Source: Kappaphycus alvarezii
Lineage: Eukaryota; Rhodophyta; Florideophyceae; Gigartinales; Solieriaceae
Reading direction: 5' to 3'
DNA: 64,000 bases
Assembly (NCBI GenBank): GCA_002205965.3
Contig: NADL03000534.1
Coordinates: forward strand, 186,001 to 250,000
This document shows positions 8,229-63,909 of this stretch, piece by piece. The position numbers and the translations under genes were made by a program. The notes under the pieces are model-generated. The model was not told the DNA's origin. It worked only from the letters and a program-made list of their open reading frames with translations, and ran no database searches. Position 1 is the stretch's first letter, and every line of letters starts with the position of its first letter.

Positions 8229-8392
8229 GGGCACGCAATAAACTATACTGTACTCACAGTGTATTGTACAGTGTGTGTACTATTGTACTTGCTTGTACCG
8301 CTCTGTACCGTACATACACTACTGTACTGTACTGTACTGTACATGGGCTGGAATCCAATAGCCGGATCCGTACTGTACAGTACAGTACAGCA
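8229..8392. repeat. GTAC-rich repeat with a perfect 16-bp inverted repeat
   Basis: The stretch is built of ACTGTAC and GTACAGT words. Bases 8327-8342 (CTGTACTGTACTGTAC) are the exact reverse complement of 8375-8390, leaving a 32-base loop, so a strong hairpin could form. Similar clusters occur at 13.17-13.32 kb and 32.90-32.96 kb, and smaller ones elsewhere. Open frames across it on both strands follow from the repeat and should not be read as proteins. Confidence 0.8.
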
Positions 8393-9190: not shown

Positions 9191-12092
9191 GAAACAGGAT
9201 AATTTCCTAAGGTGAGCCCAGCTTTTTCCAAAGGAATTTATGAATGGTGTGGTGAACATTTATTTTAAACTCCTGACTAATAAAAACCGACTAGTGGGCT
9301 ATGTTGGATATAAGCTTACAAGCCAGGAGATCAGCAGTGAACCAAGATCAACCTAGAAGATGGGCTCGGGACCAGGCATTCGGCTAGCAGCAATGGACAT
9401 GATGTGAGTTAACTTGACTTTTTTTCTAGTTGTAAAGTATTTACATAGTCGCGGAAAAAAGGTAGTTTCGTACCGCTTTTGCTTGCTCGCACACAGAGGT
9501 GGAAAAGATCGGCAAGTACGCACTTTCATAGAATTTGTTGTACAAGCAGTAGAAAGTGCAGATGTAGAAAAGGAAGCAAAGATACTACAGCACATTGGTT
9601 CCTTCCGAATTGCATTTGAGCAAAACAATTAGAGCTACTAGTAGTGAACAGCTCCTCATGAATAGGTCCCGGTGTAAGCAACAAGGCAAATTTATTGCCC
9701 ACAACTTTTTCAACTAGACCATGTTACAGAAACTCTTCCGTACGTGTCAACTCCTCCCGATGCATCCATTTTCCCAAGGAGTGTGAACATTCAATTCACG
9801 TAAACTACTGTACACCAATCCACAAGCTTACAGTACAAACTGTAATGTGTCTCCAATATCTGTAAATCATACTCTGGCAACTATGCATTAATCCAATCAC
9901 AGGTTTTCCTTGCATACTGCACAGTATTACTGTACTGTACAATAATTCCTTAACCTCTCGCAAGTTCATGCCGGCCAAGTAATAATTAGATGTCCATATT
10001 TCACCTTCCTTATCAACATTAAGACACTCGACTGTCGTCAACGGCCAAACTTTTTCGACCTGCTGGATACAACGTCCCTTCAAGCCATCCTTGCTGCTCT
10101 TGCTCACGACTCGAACAACCTCAAATCTCAGCATCCCGACCTCAGATTATAGACCACCATCAAGCGATGTATGCACGTGGAATGCTGATTGAAACTTTCC
10201 TCAAATCAAAACAATTCCAGCCCCTGTTCAGCATCAATCGCTTTCCTATACTCTCACCCCAACTTCCATCCCAATGACTGCAAGCGGGCATCCTGCTCCA
10301 ATATCCCCACTATGAATGTGAACGTTTTATCAATCTAAGCGTCTTTATGCTCCTACTGCACACGATATCAACACCGCAGCACCGTTCAAGTCATCTGTCA
10401 TCTGTTGCGGGACTCAGTCTGAGGTACAGGCTGTTTCCTTCCATGATTGCATCTGACAGCCTCTCTGACTTACGCGCGTGGAAAGCAAACCACTCATTCT
10501 ATCATTTTCCATGCTACCTGTATGCATCTCATCGCGCATCCCTGTTTCTATTTCGAGATTAGACACAGTATAAGCTTAATCTGTCTTGACAATAGTCAAA
10601 CCCCAAACGGCTGAATCGAACTTTGATCATCCAAATTCATAGCTTCCTCTTCTCGTGAGTGCTGTCCTCAAAACTCACTTGCTGGTTGTCCTTAAATAGG
10701 GGCTTCTCCTACAATGAGCGTGGTTTTTGAACTACACTTGCTGATTGTCCTGAAATCGGAGTTTCTCTCACAAGGCCCCGTCGAGGATGATATTTTGCAC
10801 CGCGAACAGCGCTTTCCATTGAAATTTTCATGCCATGATTGCTCTCCCCACCAGCTACAGTATATTGTCCTGTGAGAACAAGTGTCTTGCGCAAGTTTTA
10901 TAATATCCCAATGACCAGAAAGAATCATATTGGAAACAGGAACATCACCTCCTCGACTTGTTTGCAATGTTTGCGGGCAACTACAGGTCAGAGGTGGAAA
11001 CTTTCCAACGGCACTGGCCAGACGTTCAAGCCGCTTGCTGAATCGCACCACGACTTTAGCACTCCAGCTTGTGCTCAGGCCACTGAGCATTCACCGTTTA
11101 ATCATTTTCACATTGTCGAAACACGATAAAGCCTAGCGCCAGAAATACACAACTAGTCCCAACGGATATCTTGCGCTTCTCCTTTTTATCCAGCAAGGCA
11201 AACTGCTCCACGAAATCGCGCCTCTTCGTCTCTGTAGTTACAACCAACTTCCTTTACAACAACCGTCTACTTGAAACTTGAAAGATTTCGTGAGATAACC
11301 CGAACAGGCGTATGCCTATGAGCAAAAGAAATCGAACGCCGATCTGTCTTCTCTGCAACTGCAGAGAACTGTCCCCGGCGACAACGAAATTCCGTAGGGA
11401 TGTTGTGTTACTTTCGTGGATATTGTCGTCAAATACTGATGAATGAAGCAGAGTACTTTAGGTATTTGCGATAATCGGGCTATGATACCGCAGGCCTCGT
11501 ATTGGGAAAGAAAATGACCCGTCAATGAATGAGAAACACATTACTACAAAACCATCATGAAATCAAGCAAACGATATTTTCCAGGATTGATCCAGCATGT
11601 AGATTACCCTGAATATTCTTTAGTAAAGCCACTTATCGCTCATTATCAGTTCCTCAAAGACTTTCGTGGATATCATGACGGCAAGTTGGAACGGAATTAG
11701 TAGTTTGTGGTCAGAAATGCAGGGATGCTCGAGTCGAACAGTAATAGATGTGTGACGAATCTGCATGTTGCAAGAATTTTCTTGCTGCGGAATGTTTGAC
11801 AACAGAAAATGTTGCGGATGTTACGAAGACTCCAAAATTTGGATGCAGGTGCATTTGTTTATTTGAGGGTTGCAAAGGTCAGATTCTAAAGAAAGACGAA
11901 GATCATATTTCGCGCCGAGGCGCTAGTTTCGAGGCATATCTTTTCCAGAAACGATGGAATAAGGTGAGCTCAAGCATGCCGGCACTGGAGATAATGTTCC
12001 AATGAACATGCATGGGATTGGTTTCCAATAAATATAGCGCTGAGGCCCCCTCATACAGGTTCCTTGCATACAGACGGTGCGTGGGGAGGGGA
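9191..12092. other. Mixed-composition stretch with unassigned open frames
   Basis: Several minus-strand frames look moderately protein-like: 9805-10134 (109 codons, charged, with WPLTTVECLNVDKEGEIW), 10692-11090 (132 codons) and 11903-12259 (118 codons). None matches a family I recognise and none has a convincing neighbour. They may be remnants of one decayed minus-strand gene or transposon together with the zinc finger just upstream. A splice-like GTGAGT...TTTTTTCTAG pair at 9404-9429 would give a 26-base intron, which is implausibly short. Confidence 0.3.
10674..10780. repeat. Diverged tandem duplication, period about 59 bp
   Basis: The sequence ACTTGCTGGTTGTCCTTAAA at about 10676 recurs as ACTTGCTGATTGTCCTGAAA at about 10735, with matching downstream flanks (GGCTTCTCCTACA against AGTTTCTCTCACA). 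On the minus strand both units read as variants of RE(T/A)PIxGQ(S/P)AS, so the duplication may have arisen inside a coding sequence. Confidence 0.6.
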
Positions 12093-13168: not shown

Positions 13169-13320
13169 AAGCACTGTACAGTGCAGCACTGTACCGTACA
13201 GTAAATGTACCGTACGTACTGTACAGTACTGTCCACTATTGCGGCTCAATTGCTGCACAGCACAGTACTGTACAGGACGTACAGTATAGTACTTTAATAC
13301 AGTACAGTACAGTACAGCGC
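13169..13320. repeat. GTAC-rich inverted-repeat cluster
   Basis: Same word set as 8.2-8.4 kb: GTACTGTACAGTAC-type palindromes on both sides of a short unique spacer (about 13234-13260). The two sides can pair. Open frames here on both strands are by-products of the repeat. Confidence 0.75.
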
Positions 13321-22900: not shown

Positions 22901-25600
22901 AAAGGAAAAAATCGTACGGGTATTCTAATACTCGAAATGACCTTGAATGTACGTGTCACCTGCTGGACCAATTACCTTCCATGGCTGATATGCTGTTGAT
23001 CCATTTAACGGTAATAATACCTCCTGATTGGTCCAAATTTTTCCATGCTCTTTTTTTCATATCCCTCCTACTCCGGCCATCCCATTGGCTTCTTCTCGAG
23101 ATTCTTCTTCTGAAGATTGGCGATTCATTGGATGATGCTGGGCTACCTTCGGATGCTTGTCTTGGCTGGATGTCGACAAGTTTCGAGCTGACACGCTTTT
23201 TCCAGTCCTAAATGAAGCAGTCTCCGGTGAACGTTGTCTAACATCATCCGGTACTTGTTTCAATGTCTATGCTGACCATAATTCCATTGACGCGCTTACT
23301 TTTCCAAAGGAAACTGAATAGTCGCCTAGACTAAGCCGCTGATGTAAAAAGGGTTGCTCGAGTGTTGACAAGGTTTCCGGGCTTTTGACGGGGGTCATTT
23401 AGATTTGTCATTTTTAGTTAATTTTTGCGATATTGACAAACTTGTGTGATCGGTTGAAGTTGAGGTGTAAACTCCGAAGTTTTGCACAGTTGACTACCTA
23501 AGGGTGCTACTAGATATACTGAAAGGCTAATGGTGCCATTCTGTAATTTTTTCATATAAAATTTTGCCGTTAGATCTATGGACTCATAGGGGTACAATTG
23601 TCCTCTGGACACTAAAAGTATTGCTCTTTACTGTAAGTGGTTTCCCTTCTGAGAACAGCATGGTTGCCAGCTCGACCTTTCACAGTCTGGCTCCATTCGA
23701 AATCATTGACTCAAAATTCTCAGGAGGACCTTAAACTTCCTGTTGTTGAGGATCTGTACGTAGCATGTTCAATCAATTTGAAACCGAATCCATTCTTCTC
23801 TTTTTGCATTGAAATTGATCAAATCCGAATTCGGCGGATCTGCTTTCCTCAAGCTGATGGGAGGAACCTTTCAGGATTTTAGCATTTCTGAGCAAAACCA
23901 ACATGATACTGCGTCTTTGGAATCATTAGTCACGTTTCGCCTTCAACTTGTCTATAATTCTCTGTAACGTAAACTACGCACAGTAAACGCTCTGCTAAAT
24001 CGATCCAATTTAACTTCCTCTCCCGTTAGGGAAAAGATTTCACAACCACCAATTGGTGTCTTCGCTGTGAAAGGATGTTGAATCAGGCCTTCAGACTTCC
24101 ACATACACAGGTCGTATTGTATTTCTATGCAAGGGAGACTCAATGAGTGTCGCGTAGTCCATTCGATGATGGTGATATCCTATTGGTACATAGCTTTATT
24201 CTAACGAACAACATTTGCTAATACCCATTACGGTCATAGGCATCAATGCAAATACGCGGTGTGCCACCGACTCCTGAACCTTAGCCACCGTGATAGCCCG
24301 GCTCGAAAAGCAGTAATATTTATCTACTGCAGTGTGATACAGTACAGTACTCTCGTATGTATTTCTATACTACTAACTTGAGTTCAAGGTTCCGCAACGT
24401 TACTGGAGGTTGGTAGCAGAATTAAAATGAATAAAGCTCAGCTGTAATTGAACTTTCTGAGAGTATTTAGTCATCGCAACTGATGCCAATACGATAGGTT
24501 GCGGGCGGCTTTCTTCGCTGCAGCAGTAGTAATATATTATGATCCATGAGCTGATTAGATCATAATTATCGCAAGTTAACGAGATTCAAGATACAGCAGT
24601 ACATGCCTTTATTGTGCCTTAAAACAATAATCATGCGCCATTCCATCAGTTCAACAAAAAGCTATTCAAAGAAATCGCGTAAGACCCTGTCTGAATTCTG
24701 AGCACGAAAATGCCCCCTTGCACACAGAAGAGAACGTCAGTCTTGAAATGAGAGGTGCCTTGTATGCATTTTGACTCTTCATTAAGTTTTAAATGTTATT
24801 CAAAATCTCCTCACGTGCTTCCATTCAAGAAAATGAGAGCTAGCAAAAGTTTATTCTCTCTCTTCCAATGTAATGAATGGCTAGTTAAGCTGTAATATAT
24901 GAATGAGCAAGACGCCTAGTTGGCAAATTGGGATCATGTGACGTAAGGGAATTGAACATTTTATCCCTTTGATTGCATGATTCAACTTTAACGCCATGCA
25001 TGGTACTATACTGTACAATGTATATTATTGAACTTCACCAGTCCATATTTTGCAAAATTGATGATAAAACGTAGTCGATGGGTCATGCAGTGATTCCTGC
25101 GATATATGGACTTAACTTTCCATAAATCAGAGCGCTCGCGAGGGGCATAAAACTTTAAAGTGAATGTCACCGGAACAACAATCCTGAGCAATATATACCT
25201 GTGAATTCGATGTACAGTACATAGTACTGTCAGGGTTCAGATGGTTGATCACCTCCTTGCAGTCATTCAGTTGTTACTGCACATAGTGCTGGGGTTCTCA
25301 TTCTGAATTCTTACCCCAAAATTCTCTTGTCTGTCCAATTCTGATAAGGTTATGAGTGCTGAAAGACGTTCGGCGGATTCACTTTTCGAACTCTTTACAG
25401 TAGACTTGGCTTTGGTAACCTCAAGAACGCTCCAGAAAAAATTGTAACAATTTCCTCCAGTCTCTCCTGGTCCTCATTCAGCTTGATGCCTAGCCCCAGT
25501 GGTTCGAGAATTAGTACTTCAAGAGCAGTACGTAAATCCATTTTATAAAAGTACTTTTGAAAGCCTTTTTAAGTCGGGCTTCGCTATTAAGGCATGCCTA
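22901..25600. other. Mixed sequence, no gene recognised
   Basis: The first 350 bases may hold the worn N-terminus of the adjacent transposase: a minus frame at 23057-23263 is acidic and Gln/Ser-rich, as such N-termini often are. Beyond that only short frames and isolated GTACAGTAC words (24.33-24.36, 25.00-25.02 and 25.21-25.23 kb) are seen. Confidence 0.35.
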
Positions 25601-26945: not shown

Positions 26946-29400
26946 CTACCAGCAATCAGAGGGGAGGCGAGCAAGCAAACAAGCTGCATCAGGAGCTACT
27001 GCCGATGCATAGTGTCGCTGAAAAAGAATACGTTGCATCTTCGAAATCCATTCCATCGCACCACTGGCGACGGTTCTCACAAGCTTCTTGACGATTGCGG
27101 ACACCGCCGGATGCCAGCCTCCTCCAAGTGTTGAGATGGGAGAGGAGCTAGCCTGTTTTCCCCCGGCAATTCAACAAGAAATCTTTGATATTTCCGCTTC
27201 TACTCTAAGTGGGCTGCTTGAGGCTCGTGAGTGGGTTAAACCTCTTTGATCTGGCATAGGAGGGGGCGAGAGACTTGACAGCCGGTACGTCGAAATGGTC
27301 CGCGCCACCGGCAGTTCCCATCACCTTGTATCCAGCCTTGTCCTGTGTTGGCAGTGAATACGAGGCTCAATGTATAGAAGAAACTTTACTTCATTGAGTA
27401 TGGACGTCGGGCCGCCTTTGCCAAGTCATTTCCAAGGAGGGTCACCCGGTTGTTTTGGTGAGAACTGCGCTCACGGCAGTAACGACAGTGCAGCAAGTGG
27501 CTCCCGTAGATATCCAGTATTTCCGGAAACCCTGCCTCTGGACAATGGTATCGGGGGCGAATAAATACGTCTGGCAGAAGTATAGGAACCAAACGGAGAA
27601 ATCTTTGGTCTTGATATGTGTCTTAAAACGAGGGCACGGTGCACGGTTGACCCATCCTTTGGAGCGGGCAGGGAAATACTGGCGCAAAAGACGCATGTGC
27701 GGGTGTTGACGAGCGGCAGAGCCTCTCGTACAGCTGCGTGAACTGCATCTGTTAGTTTCTTTTGCAAGGAGAAAAGGTTTGAGTGTTTTACTCTTGGAAG
27801 ATGTATCCGATTTATCCATTCTTTTGCAATGGAAGGTTGGAGGAGCAGAAGTTGCTAAGCGGAAGTCGTTCCGAGGGTCGGCAAAAGGCGCTCCATGTAT
27901 TGACGGCAGCGATAGTATTCTCATTGCATCAAGTCTTGTGCGAAGGCAGCAAAAACTTATAACATAGCTGATGCGGAGCGGCACTAGATGCAAGATATAA
28001 GTGGCCTCAATGTCCTTCGCAGAGGTGACAGATTCCCAGGGTCGATTTTTCTCTTTTGAGCGATTTGACGGCTATACTATCTCCTTGAAGATAGTGCTGT
28101 CGAGCACTCCACCCGCTAGGGAATTTTTGGGTTATTTTAATGCATGAAGATGTGGTCGGTTATATCCACGAGGCTAATACGTTACGCGGATAAGTCCTCG
28201 CTGATGGTAACACTACAGTAAATGACCTTGCTTACAGACGGCTCAATGCCCGCTAGGGTGCGGACGCAATTTTCGATTAGGCCGTCGAAATATTCCGCTC
28301 CTTTCCTTGTGGGGGAGGGCGGCACGACTCGCAAAGGTTAGCCCACTTTGCGACGCCAAAGCAGTTATGAAGTAATTGGAATGAAGCCTGTGCGTCTTCA
28401 ATCACCATAACCGCGGATAGGAAAGGCTCGAGGGATTTTATATGGTCCTGTATGTACATTTCCATGGACGCCTGGGAACCATGGGCGGGTTTAAACCCAT
28501 AGTTCCCCGCTGTTTTCCTGTCGAATGTCAGCGGGTACGCGGCCTGAACCGACGCGAAAGGGGCAGTGGGCCACCACACCTTGCATTCGGAGACTGCCAG
28601 ATGAAGGCCACGACGTCTCAGGGGAAGAGAGAACTTCGATCGCCTTGAGTATGGGCTTGTGTTTGGCTGCAATATAGCCGTCGTCGCTGTACCACAACTC
28701 CAAAAGCAGAGTATCCAACCCTGTGTCCTCCTCGCCGAGTGCAGACCGTAATTCTTTGATTTTCAGGGCAATGGGGTTAAGCACAGAGGCAATGAGTAGG
28801 CGGCTGAGCTGGTATCCTTGCTAGCTACCCACACCAGGCCGGGTAATCTCGAAGCCTGTCCACAGGAACGCTGGGTCGGCGGCAGTAAAGCACCCAGGGA
28901 AGTAGCGGGCAGAGGTCTTGAACGTATATCTACCACCGTATGTTGTTCAATTTTAATAAATTAAGGGTTTTATCACTCGAAACCGTAAGGAGGGTAACCC
29001 TTAGAAGTTTGATGGTCAAAGTTACCGTGGCATGGCTTTCGGAATAAATGAGGTGGTGTCCAGACCAAACAGTATAACTTAGTGTCTGTTGAATTAGCTA
29101 TTCCATGCCCCGCTTGGACCAAAACGAGATTCGTTTAGAGTGCTCGTCGATTACAAGTTGCATGCGTGTGGAGAAGGCACTTGTACATCGAAACGTTGAG
29201 GCAACAAGTGACACTGCACGTGAGGGACTAGGTTGACCTCAGCAGATGGAGGAAGCCATCGAGCATCATCCGCCGAAAGGTCCGGAGCTTGCCAGTAGCA
29301 GTCACCTCGAGGAACTTGTAGACTGCCTTGAAGCGTTTCGGATCAAGGTGGGGTTGTAGGGAGAGTGGACTGTCGTGCTGAAAGCAGTGGACTTTTCGGT
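26946..29400 (-). mobile_element. RT and endonuclease-like retroelement, most complete copy
   Basis: The minus strand holds the largest copy of the window's dominant family. In order: a 50-codon coherent start (about 29.40-29.23 kb); fingers/palm text ARYFPGCFTAADPAFLW; a motif-B remnant (TRPGVGS, stop, then QGYQLSRLL, where functional enzymes have QGDPLGPLL); the motif-C box LWYSDDG at about 28.69 kb; thumb text KSLEPFLSAVMVIEDAQASF; the SKTLKPF block (27.79 kb); NRAPCPRFKTHI (27.65 kb); a GSHLLHCRYC zinc-finger-like block; GGADHFDV, resembling the Asp of a restriction-like endonuclease; STLGGGWHPAV; and the tail ILFQRHYASAVAPDAACLLA ending at the TAG at 26946. Stops and frame changes break it repeatedly. 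No LTRs were seen, so a non-LTR or Dualen-like class is possible. Class is inferred; the RT call is firm. Confidence 0.7.
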
Positions 29401-30300: not shown

Positions 30301-33300
30301 AAAAGACACCCTGATCTTCCTTCTTTTGTAAGAGACATCAAACGCAGTGCAGTTATTTCAAACAGGCAGAATGCTATTACGCATGTTTATTTCAAACAAG
30401 GAAAAGGCTAACATAGAGCTGAATTCGCCGCAAATATGAGATGTTGGGGATATTTTTTCACCTTGGTCGCAGATTTAACTGGGGACTGTCTTCTATCCTC
30501 GTGCCGAAAACAGTTAATTTATCACATGCAGTACATACGACTAAAGGCACGATGGCATTCTCTTTGCAAGCCACAGCGGGGGGTGTCTTTGAGTAGTCTT
30601 TTAAAATAGAGGTAATAATTGCGGGAATTTGAAACAGAGAGGCATGGAAAAGGGAAAAGAAGCTTTGCCACGGAACCGAGGTGCCGTCGCAAAGCTGCGT
30701 TCCCAAGTGTACTTCAGAAAAAATAACCCTACGGCTAACCTGACTCAGAGTATGAGCTTTGCCGTACCCTCCAATCCCTTGTGCAGATTTGTGTGCTTGG
30801 CTTGCTTCACTTACCGAGTCTCATTGACCATCAACTTCACCTTCTCTTGGGGACTTTTGCTGAATTTCTCTGATCCTACTTCAACCACAGACATCTCCCC
30901 CCTAGATACAGTTTCATTGTTTTCTTGTTTATTGGTGCAGGGCAAATAGTCCCTCTCGATCGTTAAGGTTCACTGACGGCTCTTTGGCGTTTGGCTTAAG
31001 AACCAACGCTACATTGAACTTCAATTGAAACGCTTTAAAACGGGGACGACATGCAAATCAGGAATGGCCCCCCGAAAGTGCTGCGTGTGTGGAGCATCGA
31101 CCTTGGTTGTGGTTGAATGATTAGAGGAAGGATTGACACTCTATTTTACGAAAGAATCTGTGTTGACAATAAGAAAAGCATTGTTGGCAGAAAGCGCAAG
31201 TATGAAATGTTGGGGTGCACTGACCCACCTGTAACAACATAGCCCACTGACGCCTCCTTTGTAGGATATCAGAAAAAATCAAACCACCAGTTAATTTGGT
31301 TGCTAGGAGACGTTTTATGAGCGGGTTCAGAAACTGTAGACCAGTGTGCAATTGAATAGGATATTTGAAACAGCTTGAGTGGGGTTTGCAATGGAAACGT
31401 AATCTGCAGGATTAGCCTAGACACCATGTTATTTAATGTATCGAGGATTGAAGGGATGAAAATGTTGCTGTTCAAGCTTGACAACATTGAACTTGGGGAA
31501 ATTATGGCAAGTTCAGCACCACGGGCAGAGTTAAAATTTGAAAAAGGGTATGTGTAGAGGGGTTATTTTTGTAAAGGTTGTGATAGATTATTGGTGGTTT
31601 ACAGTTATGCAAGGATAATAAAATGGAAGGGGACTAGGGGCGAAGGCGTCAACGGCGAGCGGGGTCTACTTAAATTAGTACTAGTGTACAGTTTCAAAAC
31701 TGCGTGGTCCTTTCCATGCAAAAAGGAGAGGCGGCGATACGGTTGGGATTGGCAACGAGTCCAGCTCTGGTTTTATTGGGACTCGAGAATAGAGGCATTT
31801 TGCAATGGAGTTGTAGGCTCTGATGTTAAGTTGCCCTGTGCTGTATTCCGTGCGACATAGTATAAATACACTCGTAATCATTACGGCAGAGACAATCCGC
31901 CTGCAGTTAATTACGACAATAAAGTGTGGCTGGTATCTCTGCATGATAATTTTGTTATGCTTTTGACACCTAAAGAAAGATATGCATTTGCCTTTGTCCA
32001 GCAAGAGAGTATCCTGCAAACTTTTTTGAAGTGCTGCTTCTCTAAATCTTTGCGATCGGCATGGGTGAATAAACTTCATCTCTCTCTCACATGCGCAAGT
32101 ACTGACCTGCATCATTTAGCCAATAATGGCTTAAAACGCCCGGAGCCTGTTTCCTACTGCGGTTCCTTATGTGATATATAAATTGAAAATGATACAAATC
32201 GTTCCCATAATTTATACAATTCTTTCTTCATGCAAACTTGGATATGCTGTGTACTTTTGTAAAGTACGGTAGCCCTTGCTGGCAGCGCTGTACTGTATCT
32301 CTGCGAAGTGACGCACGAAATGCTGTAGTGCTAACATCCTATTACGCACATCTTTCAATATTAAAATCGAGCACCTGCAGAATGACCATCTAAGTTTTTA
32401 TTCAAAGGGGCGACGGCAGTAATTGATTGCTATTGGTCCATTGTTATTGTCTAATGGAGCGGCACTATTTGGGTTAAATGGGGTGGCTTCATTTTCGTGA
32501 TAACAGCAATCGCAGGCGAGGCCAAAGTTGCCTAAGTTGGGTAAATGGAATGTTTGGATTAACATAGGGTGAAATTCCTATTAGCCTGTGCAGTGTGGCG
32601 GCGGCGGAGAAATCACTAGGGTGAAACTTGGCGAGCTATGGAATCCTGTATTGCATTTGAAAACAACGCATCAAGCTATCCAGAAGATATTCTACTTGCG
32701 CGTTCTACTATGATGCACTCTGCATTTAATCTCCACATGGCTCTATAGCCAATGTACGGTACTTTCATACTGGACTATGTAGACGGTATACAAATATTTA
32801 TGTACATATTAGACTTCTATATATACTGTATGAGCGTAAAGAAAGAAGTTAAATCCATTTAGTATCTAATTGGGATTGCGCACGGTCCAACTTCCAGGCA
32901 ACACTGTACTGTACAGTGTACTGTACACATTTACAATGCACTACTGTGCGGTACTGTTAAAACATATTTCAACGGGGTTTGATTATGTTCCTCATTCATA
33001 GAGAAGCATTTACTTGCCATTTTCAAAGCGTTCTCTGCAGTCGTCAATTAAATAGACCTCCATTGATATCCGTAGGATATGTTGCATGTTCACATGGATT
33101 GGTGCCGAGGAACCAGCAATTGAACTAGGTCCAGGGAGGCTGCTGCCAGAACATGTTAGAATAGATAAGGGAAGAAGATCATTGTCTGAATCTGAATTTC
33201 TTCCGTCTCGGAAAGCATCAACTGCTCCAAGATTGTCTGCTATGCTATGGATGGCAGCTGTTTGCTGTCACTGGATGAAAGCCAGGGTTCGCTAGCTGCC

Positions 33301-52550: not shown

Positions 52551-53575
52551 ATGACCAACTGTAATGATTCCCGTATACAAGGAGGAGATCAAGACACATT
52601 GGCTCTCTTGAACGAGTTCGATTCTATTTTCACGAGTACTTCTGCCCCAATGATACCCACAAGTAATTACAGCAGTGTTTCTGATTCCATTGCACATGCC
52701 GCCTTTTCTAACGCTTTGATGATCTAGCAAGAAACGTTTGCTCAGAGGATTTCCTCCGCTCTTGATTCCTCAGTGCAGCCTGCAGTACATTATTTTCGAT
52801 TCTGCGGCGGAATATGACCAACCCGCATCTGCGTCGCCCACCTCACACGACACACTTGGTATCTGGTGTCCCAGACTACAAGGAAATCGACATGACAGAC
52901 AGAGATCTCTCCCACGTTTCGAAACAGGCTATTGACCGACCAATTGGAATTTTTTGTGATATACGAGCTACCACCTCTGTCATCGGACGCAAAGAGATGG
53001 ACAGTATATTCCGCTCTCTGCGTCTCATCAATTTCATTCTTCCTGCATCCCGTCACCGCTTTCTTTTTGCAGATTCTGTGTACCCGTCTGTCGTCGAAAC
53101 TTCCCTGCTGCTCTACACACCAGTTGGTATCAAGTCCTTCTACGTCCAGCTTGACATCTTTGAGCTTGACATACCGTAATTATTGGGAATGAGTACCTTG
53201 GACATGGAATCATTGACAACCTGTACAATTTCCAATAGGCTTGTCAAGAGAGTCTGAGTACCCGTCGCTAATTCGTAAGTCGCCTACTTCGACGAATGGC
53301 CGTTGACACGGTCCCGCAGCAACCACCTGTATGTCCCCATCAAGCAAAAAATTTATGACATGTTCTTTACCCGACGTGAACTGGTCCGGATGCACAAGCG
53401 CTTCTTCCACCCCTCTGCTCAGAAATTATTGAACTTCCTTAAGGGCTCAAATCCAGACGATTTAAGACCGGAGAAATTGCGTACATTGCGGGATATCATC
53501 AAACGTTGTGACCCATTCCAGCGCATACAATTTGCACACCCGTTTCTGTTGAAAACGTTAAGGGGGAGAAAGTAA
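52551..53575 (+). pseudogene. Copia-like retroelement gag/protease/GAG-pre-integrase, nonsense-broken
   Basis: From ATG 52551 a gag-like frame (one in-frame TAG at about 52725) runs to 52817. The frame from 52814 then carries an aspartic-protease-like domain: PIGIFCDIRATTSVIGRKEM, where functional enzymes have D-T/S-G in place of DIRA, and later YVQLDIFELDIP followed by LLGMSTLDMESL. Beyond it lie TRSRSNHLYVP and the GAG-pre-integrase zinc module FTRRELVRMHKRFFHPSAQ with RCDPFQRI. The frame holds from 52814 to 53575 but is cut by three stops (53177, about 53258, about 53276), typical of substitution decay rather than indel error. One Cys of the zinc pair is Phe. Integrase and RT are absent downstream. 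Similar elements are known from fungi and protists. Confidence 0.65.
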
Positions 53576-59312: not shown

Positions 59313-59906
59313 ATGTCCCTCCGCCTCCACCATGTCCACAGACTCGCCGCACCCAAACATAACAAGCCCGCAGCAGTCGCTGGCAACGGTGCCCCTACCG
59401 GCCACCAATTGGAGGAGGACGACGACTTTCGCGACGAGTATGACGGCTTTTTGGATGATGCAACCGTTGTTTCGGTCCCTTTGCCCCTTGATTTGTATCT
59501 GTCGCAGTCAAGTAGTGGCAAGGTTTACGTCGATGAAATAGTTCCGCATGGCAATGCTGACAAGGTGGGTCGCATTTCTGTCGGCGATATTTTGATAGCT
59601 GTGTCAATTCCGTTTGGAGAAACTCTCATCCCCGTTCCTGACTCCAACGCATTGGATATGGTCGAGCAACACATTTCGTCGAGGGAAACGGGAGAGGATT
59701 TCCACATGGCGCTCATTCCGGGCGATATCCACCTCTTGTCGGCAGAGGAACCAGAGGATGGCCTGGACAGTCTCACTTTGGAAGAGATGGAGAGCAACGC
59801 GAAAAAGATCTACGTCAAAGAGTACCCCTATGTAGAGGAGCCTGAGCCTATCGAAGAACAGCAGCTCGATCTGGAGGCCCTCAAGGAGCAGGGCTTTGAT
59901 ATTTAG
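59313..59906 (+). CDS. PDZ-domain protein, possibly plastid-targeted
   Basis: One intact 197-codon frame. Residues about 50-135 form a PDZ-like domain: VSVPLPLDLYL (carboxylate-binding loop position), VYVDEIVPHGNADKVGRISV, GDILIAVSIPFGE, and a final strand HMALIP. The GNADKxGxIxVGDxL pattern is typical of the single-PDZ proteins common in plastid-bearing algae. The C-terminus is acidic (YVEEPEPIEEQQLDLEALKE). An ATG at 59173 in another frame, right after a C/A-rich leader, starts MSFCTASPPAFALNPVLFPA, which is rich in Ser, Pro and Ala and lacks acidic residues, like a transit peptide. One base indel between 59173 and 59313 would join the two. The convergent gene ends at 60046, only 139 bases away. 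Function is unknown; a membrane or thylakoid scaffold role would be a guess. Confidence 0.7.
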   Translation: MSLRLHHVHRLAAPKHNKPAAVAGNGAPTGHQLEEDDDFRDEYDGFLDDATVVSVPLPLDLYLSQSSSGKVYVDEIVPHGNADKVGRISVGDILIAVSIPFGETLIPVPDSNALDMVEQHISSRETGEDFHMALIPGDIHLLSAEEPEDGLDSLTLEEMESNAKKIYVKEYPYVEEPEPIEEQQLDLEALKEQGFDI

Positions 59907-60045: not shown

Positions 60046-62943
60046 CTACAACCCACTTTGCTCAAAATCCTCTACGATCTTCTGCAACACCTCTTTACCC
60101 TTGAAGAAATTCAGCGCCGCAGTCTTTCATCTGGAAGATGAGCTCCATCCGACGATTGCCCAAGTGGGACCTGCACAAGCGGTGCTCCGAGCCTTGGCAA
60201 GATAGGAAAACACCGGCATGCTCCCACCTTCGCATACGTACTCGGGAGTAACACCCCATACCGACCGAATAGCTCTTTCCGCAATCTGAAAATGAGGTTC
60301 AGAAGGGTCCCCGAGCCACCACCCCTTGTTCACACACTCCACCGTCAGTTATTTGGAGACCGTCTCTTGCGTATCTCAAATCCAAGGTGAGCTGCATGGC
60401 CTTTTCGATTTTTGATGGGTCTTGATCTGGCACAAATCGGACTGATACCTTTGCAGTGGCGCGGCGGGGGACAACTGAGAGGAAGCCAGATTCGTTACTA
60501 GTGTCAATGCAAGTTATGGAAACCGACGGCTTTCTCCACCTGGCCTCGAGCACCTCAGCAGCCTGATCGCAGTGAATCGCTCAACGCCGTCGCTTTGTGA
60601 TACTCGGCAATGTCAAAGTCCACCCCTCGGAGTAGGTCCCTGTCAGCTCCTGTTAACGGTCTTACGTCGTCATAGAATCCCGGCACACAGACTACCCCCG
60701 CTCGCGTCCACGAGGGTCCCCAGGATGGTAATCAAGTCATTCATCGGCTCATACAGTGCTCCTCCATCAACACCAGAATGCAAGTTTCGGGCACCGCCAG
60801 TGACTGAAACTCTGAGCTCAATAATACCACGGAAAGCTGTAAGTGATGCACGGCTTCTCTTCCCCCAACCAGTTCGAATTTGATGTTATGATGAGAGCGG
60901 TGTTTTCGAACCAATGCAAATGGGACTCAATGCATTCCCTGAACCCTTTGTTCGCAGTTTCCCCTTCCCCTTGAAGAACCAGCACGATATTGTTTTCGAG
61001 TCCATCTCTATTATCATCCATTAGTTTCTTTATAGCAAGATCATGGCGATTATGGGCCCCTTGTTGTCTGTGGCCCGCGACCGTAGAAATACCGTCCATG
61101 GAAGTAAGAGTCCATGGATTTGATCTCCATTGACTTTCGTCGACGGGCATTACATCATAATGACCATAAAATGCGACAGTTTTTGCGGCAGGATTCACTG
61201 CTGAGAACTTTGCAAGTACAACCGGATTTGATCCTCCTCCCCGCTTTTGTTTGCATCACATGCTGCAAACTTTACCGTGGCACCGAGCCCTTCCAAGAAA
61301 GTGCTGATGTAGCGAGCTCCTTGCCAGCAATCCTCCTTGTGATCTTCATTTCCGGAAACGGTAGGAAAGGAGACGAACCGTGCGAGCACGTCCTGCATGA
61401 GGCGTTTCTCAAGTACTTCAGTTGCAAACTCGGTGCAATCTCCGGCGGCGGAACAAACCTTACCAGACACTGGCATATCCCATGCCCTGCCTAATGCAAA
61501 CTTGTCTATTTTCGCCAGATCCTTCCCGTCGAAAAGTGTCGAAATCAGGGTGCGACCGGCTTTTCTCACATTCAATCATTGGTGACATCGGTGGGGCCAG
61601 AACCATTTCATTAGTCATGCCGAGGACAAGAGTCTCCGCATCATCGGCGTGTTCGTGGATTTCGGTGACAATCATGTCGTCAGAATTCGGCGAACTCTTA
61701 TCACCGTTACCCCTGATACCGTTAGTGACTTTTTGGCCATTGCTTGCAATGTCTGTCGGCGTGAATGAGTGCGCGAGGTGGTGATGGTTCCGTTTGTTTT
61801 CAATGTAGTCTCAAGGTTGCCGTTCGCAGTTCCCATTGCCACTGATGTATTCTCCTTGCGTAATTCTCGAAGATTAACGTCCCTGCCTGTGGAAATGAAG
61901 TCTCTCATCTGAATTAAGCCTTCGCTAGACGCTGTGAACAAAAGATTGTGCCGCAAGCTGACAGACCCCGCTGTGAGGCTCTTATCGCGATACTGGCATA
62001 TAAGTGCCAATGTCTCTACCGACCAGACGCACAAGTGACCGTCAGCAGACCCCGACACAAGCATGTTTGAGCACGGACAGAAATACAATCTCGTCCTTGT
62101 GTTTTCTCAGTGTTCTTTTGCAGAGAAATCCATTGTCACCATCCCAAACCCAAACCTTGACTGTATGGTCCCTGGATCCTGAGAATAGCATTGTCCAAGC
62201 TCGACTTCATAGGCGACCAAAGTCAGAATGGCGCCGGTGTGATCGTCCCTTTTTTGGACACAATCTTGGCTCTCCACGTCCCAAATGCGAAGCAAACCAT
62301 CACCACTTCCGGTGCACAGGAACCGGCCGTCTAAACACGAGGCCATCACAAAGACGTGTCCAAAATGAGAGGCACCGGCCAGATCCCGCGGAAATTCGCC
62401 TCCAGTGTAGAGGACGCCATTTTCAGCACATGATTCGTGGTCGGAGGACGTTTCGCCAGGTAGGATTTTGCCAGGCAACGGGTCTCCGTAAATTGTTGTG
62501 AGGTCTTCTATGATACAGCGTACTTTGGCATCTGAAAATCCAGCAAACACCCTCTTTCCAATAATTGTAATGAAAGTATGTCCCCGGTGCCTTCACAGCA
62601 CATGACAAATGCGGCTTCGAATTTCTCTTCCGGTGTTAGACGATACACAGCAACGACAGACGCCGAGGTGGCGCAGACGAGTATCCCTCTTCAACATGGG
62701 CAACCATAGCGAGAACGGGTCGGCGACCGGTACGGAACACTCGGACAAAGTGTTGTCCTCCATTTTCCAACATGAATGCTGCCGTCATCGGTGCCACTGC
62801 AAAGAAGCGAACCCATGACTAGACAACATAGGGCGGTCTTCCCTGGAATGGTGATGGTGGAACGCACTGTGGAGCCGACAACATTGCAAGTAACGACGCC
62901 TTTGTCAGGGAGGGGCCACGTCTCGCAGTTTTCCTGTTTGAAG
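60046..62943 (-). CDS. DUG2: Dug2-type protein: WD40 propeller plus M20 metallopeptidase
   Basis: Two domains follow in the order of yeast Dug2. WD40 blades: LLCSGTDDGSIHV, then FVMASCLDGRFLCTGSGDGL and LRIWDVE, LFSGSRDHTVKVW, and NMLVSGSADGHLCVWSVETL. M20 peptidase: LARFVSFPTVSGNE; YGHYDVMPVD (metal ligands His and Asp); TDNKGP (bridging Asp); VLVLQGEGETANKG (catalytic and ligand Glu); LHSGVDGG (dimerisation domain); and C-terminal SSDGAHLPDER with the last His ligand, ending at the TAG at 60046-60048. All key residues are present. In yeast, Dug2 with Dug3 cleaves glutathione to Glu and Cys-Gly in the cytosol, and Dug1 then splits Cys-Gly. About fifteen single-base frame changes interrupt the path; no intron boundaries explain them. 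It is separate from, or fused to, the amidotransferase just upstream. Confidence 0.8.
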
Positions 62944-63909
62944 GGATCCTTTCAACTTGCTTTGCGTCCAGTTGGTCAGCACCCTGGACATGAGGGTCAG
63001 ATTTTGGTTCCAACGGGGATACAAGAATATGCATGGATTTCGTGACGACGAGACAGGCATTTCTCGGAACGGCGACCCAATCGGCTCTTCTCTCCGTCAA
63101 AGGTTCCGAGGAGACGATGACCAAAGAGGGGCGACGATCGGTATGCATCATAGCATAATTGCCGGGAGCCCGAGCCATCCGACTGATAACTGGTGCCTGA
63201 TGCGTAGTAGAGGCTGGCGGCGGCGGCGTTTGGGTTGCGCAAATCGATAACGTAGCGCGAGGCGACCATACTCTCGCCGTCAGAAACGACAAAGTTGAGC
63301 AAAGAGGTCTCATTTGCATTTGCGTGGACGAGGGCACGTTGAATGATGCGAATGGTTCACTGAGACATGCACGGAGCTTATCCGGACTTCCCTGTGCCAT
63401 GGGATCATGGATTAGGCTGAGAAAGACGGCAAAGCAAAGGGCGGTATCGCTACCGCCATGCTCGACTGCAAAATCAAAGGCAGTGTCCGACAAGCCGGCG
63501 AGTAAATGACGTCTGACTTTTGAAAAGTTGCCAAGATTTCCATTATGCATCCAAAGGTACCTGCCAAAGCGGAAGGGATGGCAGGTTGTTTCAGTGACGC
63601 CGAGGCCCTGAGAAGCGGCGCGGACATGAGCGAAGAGAACGGGGGTATAAACTTTCTCGGCGATGGAGGAGAGGTTGGGGTCATTCCATGCGGGACGTGC
63701 CTGACGGTAGACGCAGGGGATTGTGTCAAGGGGGTCGTTGCTATACCAGCCGAGACCAAAGCCGTCGCCGTTGAGATAGGCGGGTTGGGGGGATCGGCGG
63801 AGAGTCGCTCGCGCGAGTCAAAGGATTGAGTGATGATGGAACGAGAGGGACGGGTTACAAGGTCTGCGGCACAGATTGGGGCGCCGAAGAAGGCGCTGAG
63901 ACGACACAT
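62944..63909 (-). CDS. DUG3: Dug3-type class II glutamine amidotransferase
   Basis: The ATG at 63909 is followed at once by Cys (MCRLSAFFGAP), the N-terminal nucleophile exposed after Met removal in class II amidotransferases. Then come QSFDSRERL, NGDGFGLGWYSNDP, VLFAHVRAAS, WMHNGNLGNFSKVRRHL (glutamine-binding loop), HGGSDTALCFAVFLSL, LLNFVVSDGESMVASRYV, and AMMHTDRRPSLVIVSSEPLT with VPRNACLVVT. The order and content match fungal Dug3, the subunit that shares the glutathione-hydrolysing site with Dug2. Three clear one-base frame changes occur (near 63.79, 63.32 and 63.14 kb), the first in a run of six C. The amidotransferase frame would stop at 62819-62821, but switching frame once near 62.94 kb gives WD40-like sequence that runs on into Dug2. 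Length is close to yeast Dug3. Confidence 0.8.

Follow-up and report, generated by a model that had tools for sequence, protein, structure and literature searches.

The window, by which we mean the whole stretch of 64,000 nucleotides that was analysed (C530:186001-250000, in a genome of 336 Mb and 884 contigs), carries on its minus strand, from 63909 to 60046, a Dug3-type class II amidotransferase, WD40-like blades and a carnosinase-type M20 domain, in this order and within 3864 bp. Read from the sequence, the domains and frame-tolerant alignments of two of its parts, the gene begins at the ATG at 63909 (MCRL...) and ends at the TAG at 60048-60046; its C-terminal end, ALNFFKGKEVLQKIVEDFEQSGL with the stop (60046-60117), was read by eye. 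The first-pass annotation had named these modules, their order, their strand and their limits, and the Pfam and Protein Data Bank matches bear all of this out. Judged by its domains, the module set is that of Dug3 plus Dug2. A frame running without interruption from the amidotransferase to the M20 domain is absent from the sequence as deposited and opens up once frame changes are allowed for, and since such changes run throughout, the deposited gene has no translation as a whole.

The amidotransferase (63011-63909) is of class II, with an N-terminal nucleophile, and lies in three frames with three shifts. Its piece matches GATase_6 (1.5e-7) and GATase_4 (6.9e-7) in Pfam, both above the cut-off, and 3mdn in the Protein Data Bank (1.5e-22). 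The Cys2 nucleophile adjoins the initiator methionine. In frame-tolerant alignments, 107 of 282 aligned codons are identical to the homologue of Legionella anisa and 93 of 262 to that of Streptomyces anulatus, with three shifts and no stops in either case. Searched against the 336 Mb genome, the Dug3 piece gave a single match (five candidates scored). The first GATase_4 matches in the genome were PurF twins and not Dug3.

About seven WD40-like blades can be counted by eye. Blade 1 (PGKTALCCLVMGSLLCSGTDDGSIH, 62770-62846) stands in a stop-free frame and scores 52 against a WD40 consensus; the other two frames score 15 and 13, and none of 2000 shuffles reaches 52. Pfam assigns no family to the blade-1 piece. 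The remaining blades, about six by eye, occupy several frames between 61675 and 62690. Three pieces have WD40-type matches in Pfam, every one below the PF00400 cut-off, and one piece has many WD40 matches in the Protein Data Bank. Low scores against the consensus (13, 24 and 23) were obtained for the pieces taken to be blades 2, 3 and 7. The WD40 part and then the M20 part follow each other on one strand, and the joints cross frame changes.

The M20 domain with its dimerisation lid lies at 60223-61392, and its sequence is of the carnosinase/DUG1 type. Pfam matches its pieces to M20 (5.1e-5, slightly below the cut-off) and to M20_dimer (2.3e-7, above it). In the Protein Data Bank, four of its pieces find CNDP2, carnosinase and yeast DUG1, with best E values of 3.9e-12, 1e-7, 4.9e-6 and 1.1e-6 and with matches lying between about positions 79 and 433 of these chains; the piece 61575-61198 found no match there. 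Aligned with the genome's own M20, a separate Dug1-type protein encoded on contig C637, 132 of 390 codons are identical, with nine shifts and no stops. Compared with CNDP2 and this protein, the domain keeps GHYDV, TDN and LHSG; in place of the Glu-Glu pair it has Gly-Glu, and in TDNYW the Asp is replaced by Asn. Both changes would suit a domain that lacks peptidase activity, with the reservation that errors at these bases may play a part. An earlier impression that a bridging metal Asp had been lost, gained from a one-frame reading, was withdrawn, as the frame-tolerant alignment shows TDN to be kept. There are five M20 matches in the genome, and the four outside the locus are 28-30% identical. 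The protein on C637, an ORF of 522 codons, retains the residues that are altered in the M20 part of the locus, and its C-terminal end departs from the family.

The junction between the amidotransferase and the propeller

Are the amidotransferase and the propeller parts of one protein? From the last codon homologous to Dug3 (63011, against L. anisa) to the blade-1 codon at 62838 (TALCC) there are 172 nt, or about 57 codons, close to the roughly 60 estimated in the first-pass annotation; this linker (62838-63010) contains the disputed frame change. One frame switch does leave a path without a stop, as had been proposed. The C run near 62.944 kb is not the only place for it, since a switch anywhere between 62954 and 62821 would do. 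Moreover, 11 GT-AG pairs of 20-140 nt also join both frames without a stop, among them 62982-62867 and 62919-62843, so that either a single shift or a GT-AG pair lets the Dug3 and WD40 modules read on. As deposited, the Dug3 frame ends at a TAG (62821-62819) that falls within blade 1 of the other frame; the blade-1 frame has its first ATG shortly after, at 62816-62814. The stop and the nearby ATG were thus correctly noted, with a spacing of two bases rather than about four. Codon usage was tried as a means of choosing the junction frame and set aside: it is nearly flat in this genome, the frame decoder called the entire region non-coding and the leave-one-out scores were small.

We consider it likely, from these comparisons, that one gene encodes one Dug3-WD40-M20 protein, whether an error or a small intron underlies the shift at the junction. 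This reading is favoured because the Dug3 frame has no homology past about 62950, blade 1 lies in the other frame and no ATG precedes it there, and also because similar indels break strongly selected genes elsewhere in the assembly. The proposal of one fused gene is thus supported in part: its domain calls hold and it is the favoured reading, but the frame as deposited is broken at the junction by the stop at 62821-62819.

Could there instead be two tandem genes, with DUG3 ending at 62819 and DUG2 starting at the ATG at 62816, transcribed separately or on one transcript with trans-splicing or reinitiation? The stop and the ATG do stand two bases apart as deposited, and yeast makes both proteins separately (PMC7617739, in the part cited). 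The score of blade 1 is nearly independent of the residues before the ATG, which add one point (51 without them), and because dropping them costs so little the score leaves the start undecided. A bacterial precedent for neighbouring genes also exists: in Blastococcus (L063:5818-8098) an ORF for a Dug3-like amidotransferase is followed directly downstream by an M20 match, on the same strand and in the same order. This is the one locus with M20 near the amidotransferase among 80 bacterial loci searched by tblastn, and WD40 was found near none of the 80, among the matches listed. Against two genes stands the tail of the Dug3 frame after 63011, for which frame-tolerant alignment found no homology. 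From the anatomy of WD40 domains, a separate Dug2 starting at 62816 would lose the first strand of blade 1. Any separate Dug2 would need either a start inside blade 1 or a further shift. The 3' end of one gene and the promoter of the next would also have scant space; our promoter scan covered bacterial types and is uninformative here. Taken together, we regard a pair of tandem genes as unlikely.

Within the reading as one fused gene, the frame change at the junction might be a small intron and not an error. The 11 GT-AG candidates would allow it. Elsewhere in the gene, however, the frame changes sit where the alignments have few gaps, which makes indels the commoner cause in this gene, and a further shift is ordinary here because frame changes occur throughout. 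We therefore think an intron at the junction quite unlikely.

Frame changes in the gene and in the assembly

The alignments place three shifts in the amidotransferase and nine in the M20 part, that is 12 in 672 aligned codons, with no in-frame stop; by eye, the whole gene, the WD40 part included, has about 20 frame changes. In the aligner, the penalties for a shift and for a stop were equal and chosen by us, so that a stop can be traded for a shift at the same cost. As several genes of this genome exist as twins about 93-97% alike, we compared three twins broken by indels (HSP70, PurF and a Dug1-like M20) with their partners as controls. The HSP70 twins differ over 594 codons by 1, 0 and 39 changes at the three codon positions (40 synonymous, 0 non-synonymous, 0 stop), and the broken copy lacks three single bases. 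For PurF the changes over 408 codons are 4, 0 and 20 (21 synonymous, 3 non-synonymous, 0 stop), with two indels in the compared stretch of the broken copy and one more elsewhere in its ORF. The Dug1-like M20 twins differ over 405 codons by 3, 1 and 20 changes (20 synonymous, 4 non-synonymous, 0 stop); the broken copy has eight indel columns, which represent fewer events, and seven of them fall within codons 231-290. An intact pair of HSP70 genes has no indels in 598 codons. The breaks in the three genes look like artefacts, since the broken twins are under purifying selection and are so conserved that real frame loss is unlikely; judging by these pairs, indel breaks of this type are most likely assembly errors, which are able to cluster. 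The cluster of missing bases in one copy of the Dug1-type M20 twins, L024 (C637) and L108 (C590), is also a quality warning for gene models of this assembly.

Perhaps, however, the breaks in the Dug gene are real and it is a decaying gene or pseudogene, fused or not. Its frame changes are locally dense: their density exceeds that of the HSP70 and PurF controls and resembles that of the M20 control only when indel columns are counted. Its neighbours are intact. A PDZ-like ORF on the plus strand (59361-59903), with a weak Pfam match to PDZ (0.0059), converges tail to tail on the Dug gene, with about 140 bp between their ends. A clathrin adaptor gene lies at a distance of about 7.5 kb, and between it and the Dug gene there is a frame that is open for about 670 codons and has no Pfam match (C530:255202-257220). 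Some 9 kb from the Dug gene, a bile-acid symporter gene is split over two frames. An intact second copy is also absent: neither DNA searches nor searches with the Dug3 piece found another Dug locus in the genome. This lack is not special to the Dug gene, because the PDZ-like neighbour has no second copy in the genome either. Some other gene copies contain in-frame stops, for example HSP70 at C120 (seven TGA) and at C749 and several light-harvesting matches, and the HSP70 copies indicate that real decay may also occur in this genome; in the genome search for HSP70, four matches cover nearly the entire family in one open frame and others are split. On the other side, the 672 aligned codons of the Dug gene hold no in-frame stop, with the reservation that the aligner could exchange a stop for a shift, the amidotransferase retains Cys2 and all columns that are invariant in five sequences, and a similar cluster of indels was seen in the twin of a selected gene, the Dug1-like M20. 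On balance decay seems to us improbable, and we prefer to read the many breaks in the fused gene as probable base-level errors of the assembly.

Host and surroundings of the gene

The host is a photosynthetic eukaryote that is not a fungus, and is probably an alga. The genome has 22 light-harvesting matches, pieces included, and no match to a silicon transporter, hence no hint of a diatom; four of the light-harvesting loci look red-algal to us. Elsewhere in the window, the near-palindrome CTGTACAGTAC and its variants have 32 matches (both strands, at most one mismatch) against 0.49 expected, at sites that include 8261-8390, 9930-9942, 13171-13317, 24340-24350, 25210-25220 and 32904-32928. GTACTGTACAG occurs in 1 of 84 bacterial loci and in 14 of 32 loci of the genome, some of which overlap or are twins; these lie near genes for PurF, HSP70 and light-harvesting proteins. 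The near-palindrome could be a dispersed repeat, or its role could be regulatory. By eye, 53279-53572 and 27445-28762 look like old pieces of retroelements (integrase or reverse transcriptase); Pfam gave no family for either apart from one unrelated match at 0.14.

A putative one-chain enzyme and its counterparts

We hypothesize that the locus encodes a single chain, made from one transcript, in which a Dug3 amidotransferase is joined by a short linker to a WD40 propeller and an M20 domain. By analogy with the yeast (Dug2p-Dug3p)2 enzyme, the target of Cys2 would be the gamma-glutamyl bond in glutathione, whose attack would yield glutamate and Cys-Gly. The WD40 part would serve to hold the amidotransferase, and the M20 part to pair two chains into a dimer. 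Cys-Gly could then be cut by the separate Dug1-type M20 peptidase of this genome. Kaur et al. in 2012 reportedly found that the WD40 domain of Dug2p binds Dug3p and that its M20 domain dimerises and has no peptidase activity. If these roles apply, the chain may be a tethered version of the yeast enzyme: with the amidotransferase first, Cys2 would be left free at the mature N-terminus, and the Dug3-binding propeller would come directly after Dug3. The fixed 1:1 ratio of the two subunits suggested in the first-pass annotation would also follow from one chain.

We are inclined to think that a photosynthetic lineage outside the fungi has its glutathione degradosome in one chain, Dug3-WD40-M20, as a natural Rosetta-stone fusion of the two-protein enzyme of fungi. 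The DUG route has been called fungus-specific or fungal-specific (PMC9012958; PMC6508711, in the parts cited). If the fusion is real, the pathway would not be specific to fungi, a one-gene algal version would widen its range and the two-protein state of fungi could be a split. Such a gene would also be independent genetic evidence that Dug2 and Dug3 act as one enzyme, and would offer a single-chain protein for structures of a glutamine-type amidotransferase turned onto glutathione. A search of the literature for phrases on a Dug2-Dug3 fusion gave no described case, in agreement with the earlier remark that none was known.

How does the gene compare with known systems? Relatives were sought in phages, viruses, plasmids and prokaryotes. 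None was found in phages and none was confirmed in viral_contigs; in the plasmid collection 44 records had a match, all below 60% identity, and four regions were opened. Among the matches listed for bacteria in genome_contigs, 540 were confirmed and 80 loci kept, with amidotransferase ORFs of 256-471 codons from stop to stop; the four bacterial Dug3-like class II enzymes that we compared are 42-49% identical over a core of 125 residues. The fungal DUG3 proteins of Magnaporthe oryzae (469 aa) and Fusarium graminearum (476 aa) have a similar GATase type 2 domain and, unlike the predicted algal protein, are described in the parts of the sources cited with this domain only (PMC9012958, PMC12653102).

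The (Dug2p-Dug3p)2 complex of Saccharomyces cerevisiae has the same modules, a class II amidotransferase, WD40 and M20A; it is made of two polypeptides from two genes, whereas the alga probably has one, with the amidotransferase first. According to the passages cited, Dug2 and Dug3 are separate proteins in yeast, where glutathione and gamma-Glu-Met are both cleaved by their complex (PMC7617739), which is also capable of gamma-glutamyl transfer (PMC6508711). A parallel may lie in Euglena gracilis, also a photosynthetic eukaryote, for which orthologues of the degradosome have been reported and a single contig, GDJR01091960.1, is named for proteins of the 'GSH degradosome' (PMC6351624). The passage in question states no fusion, unlike our reading for the alga. 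It may be, nevertheless, that the single contig of Euglena reflects a fusion that went unremarked there.
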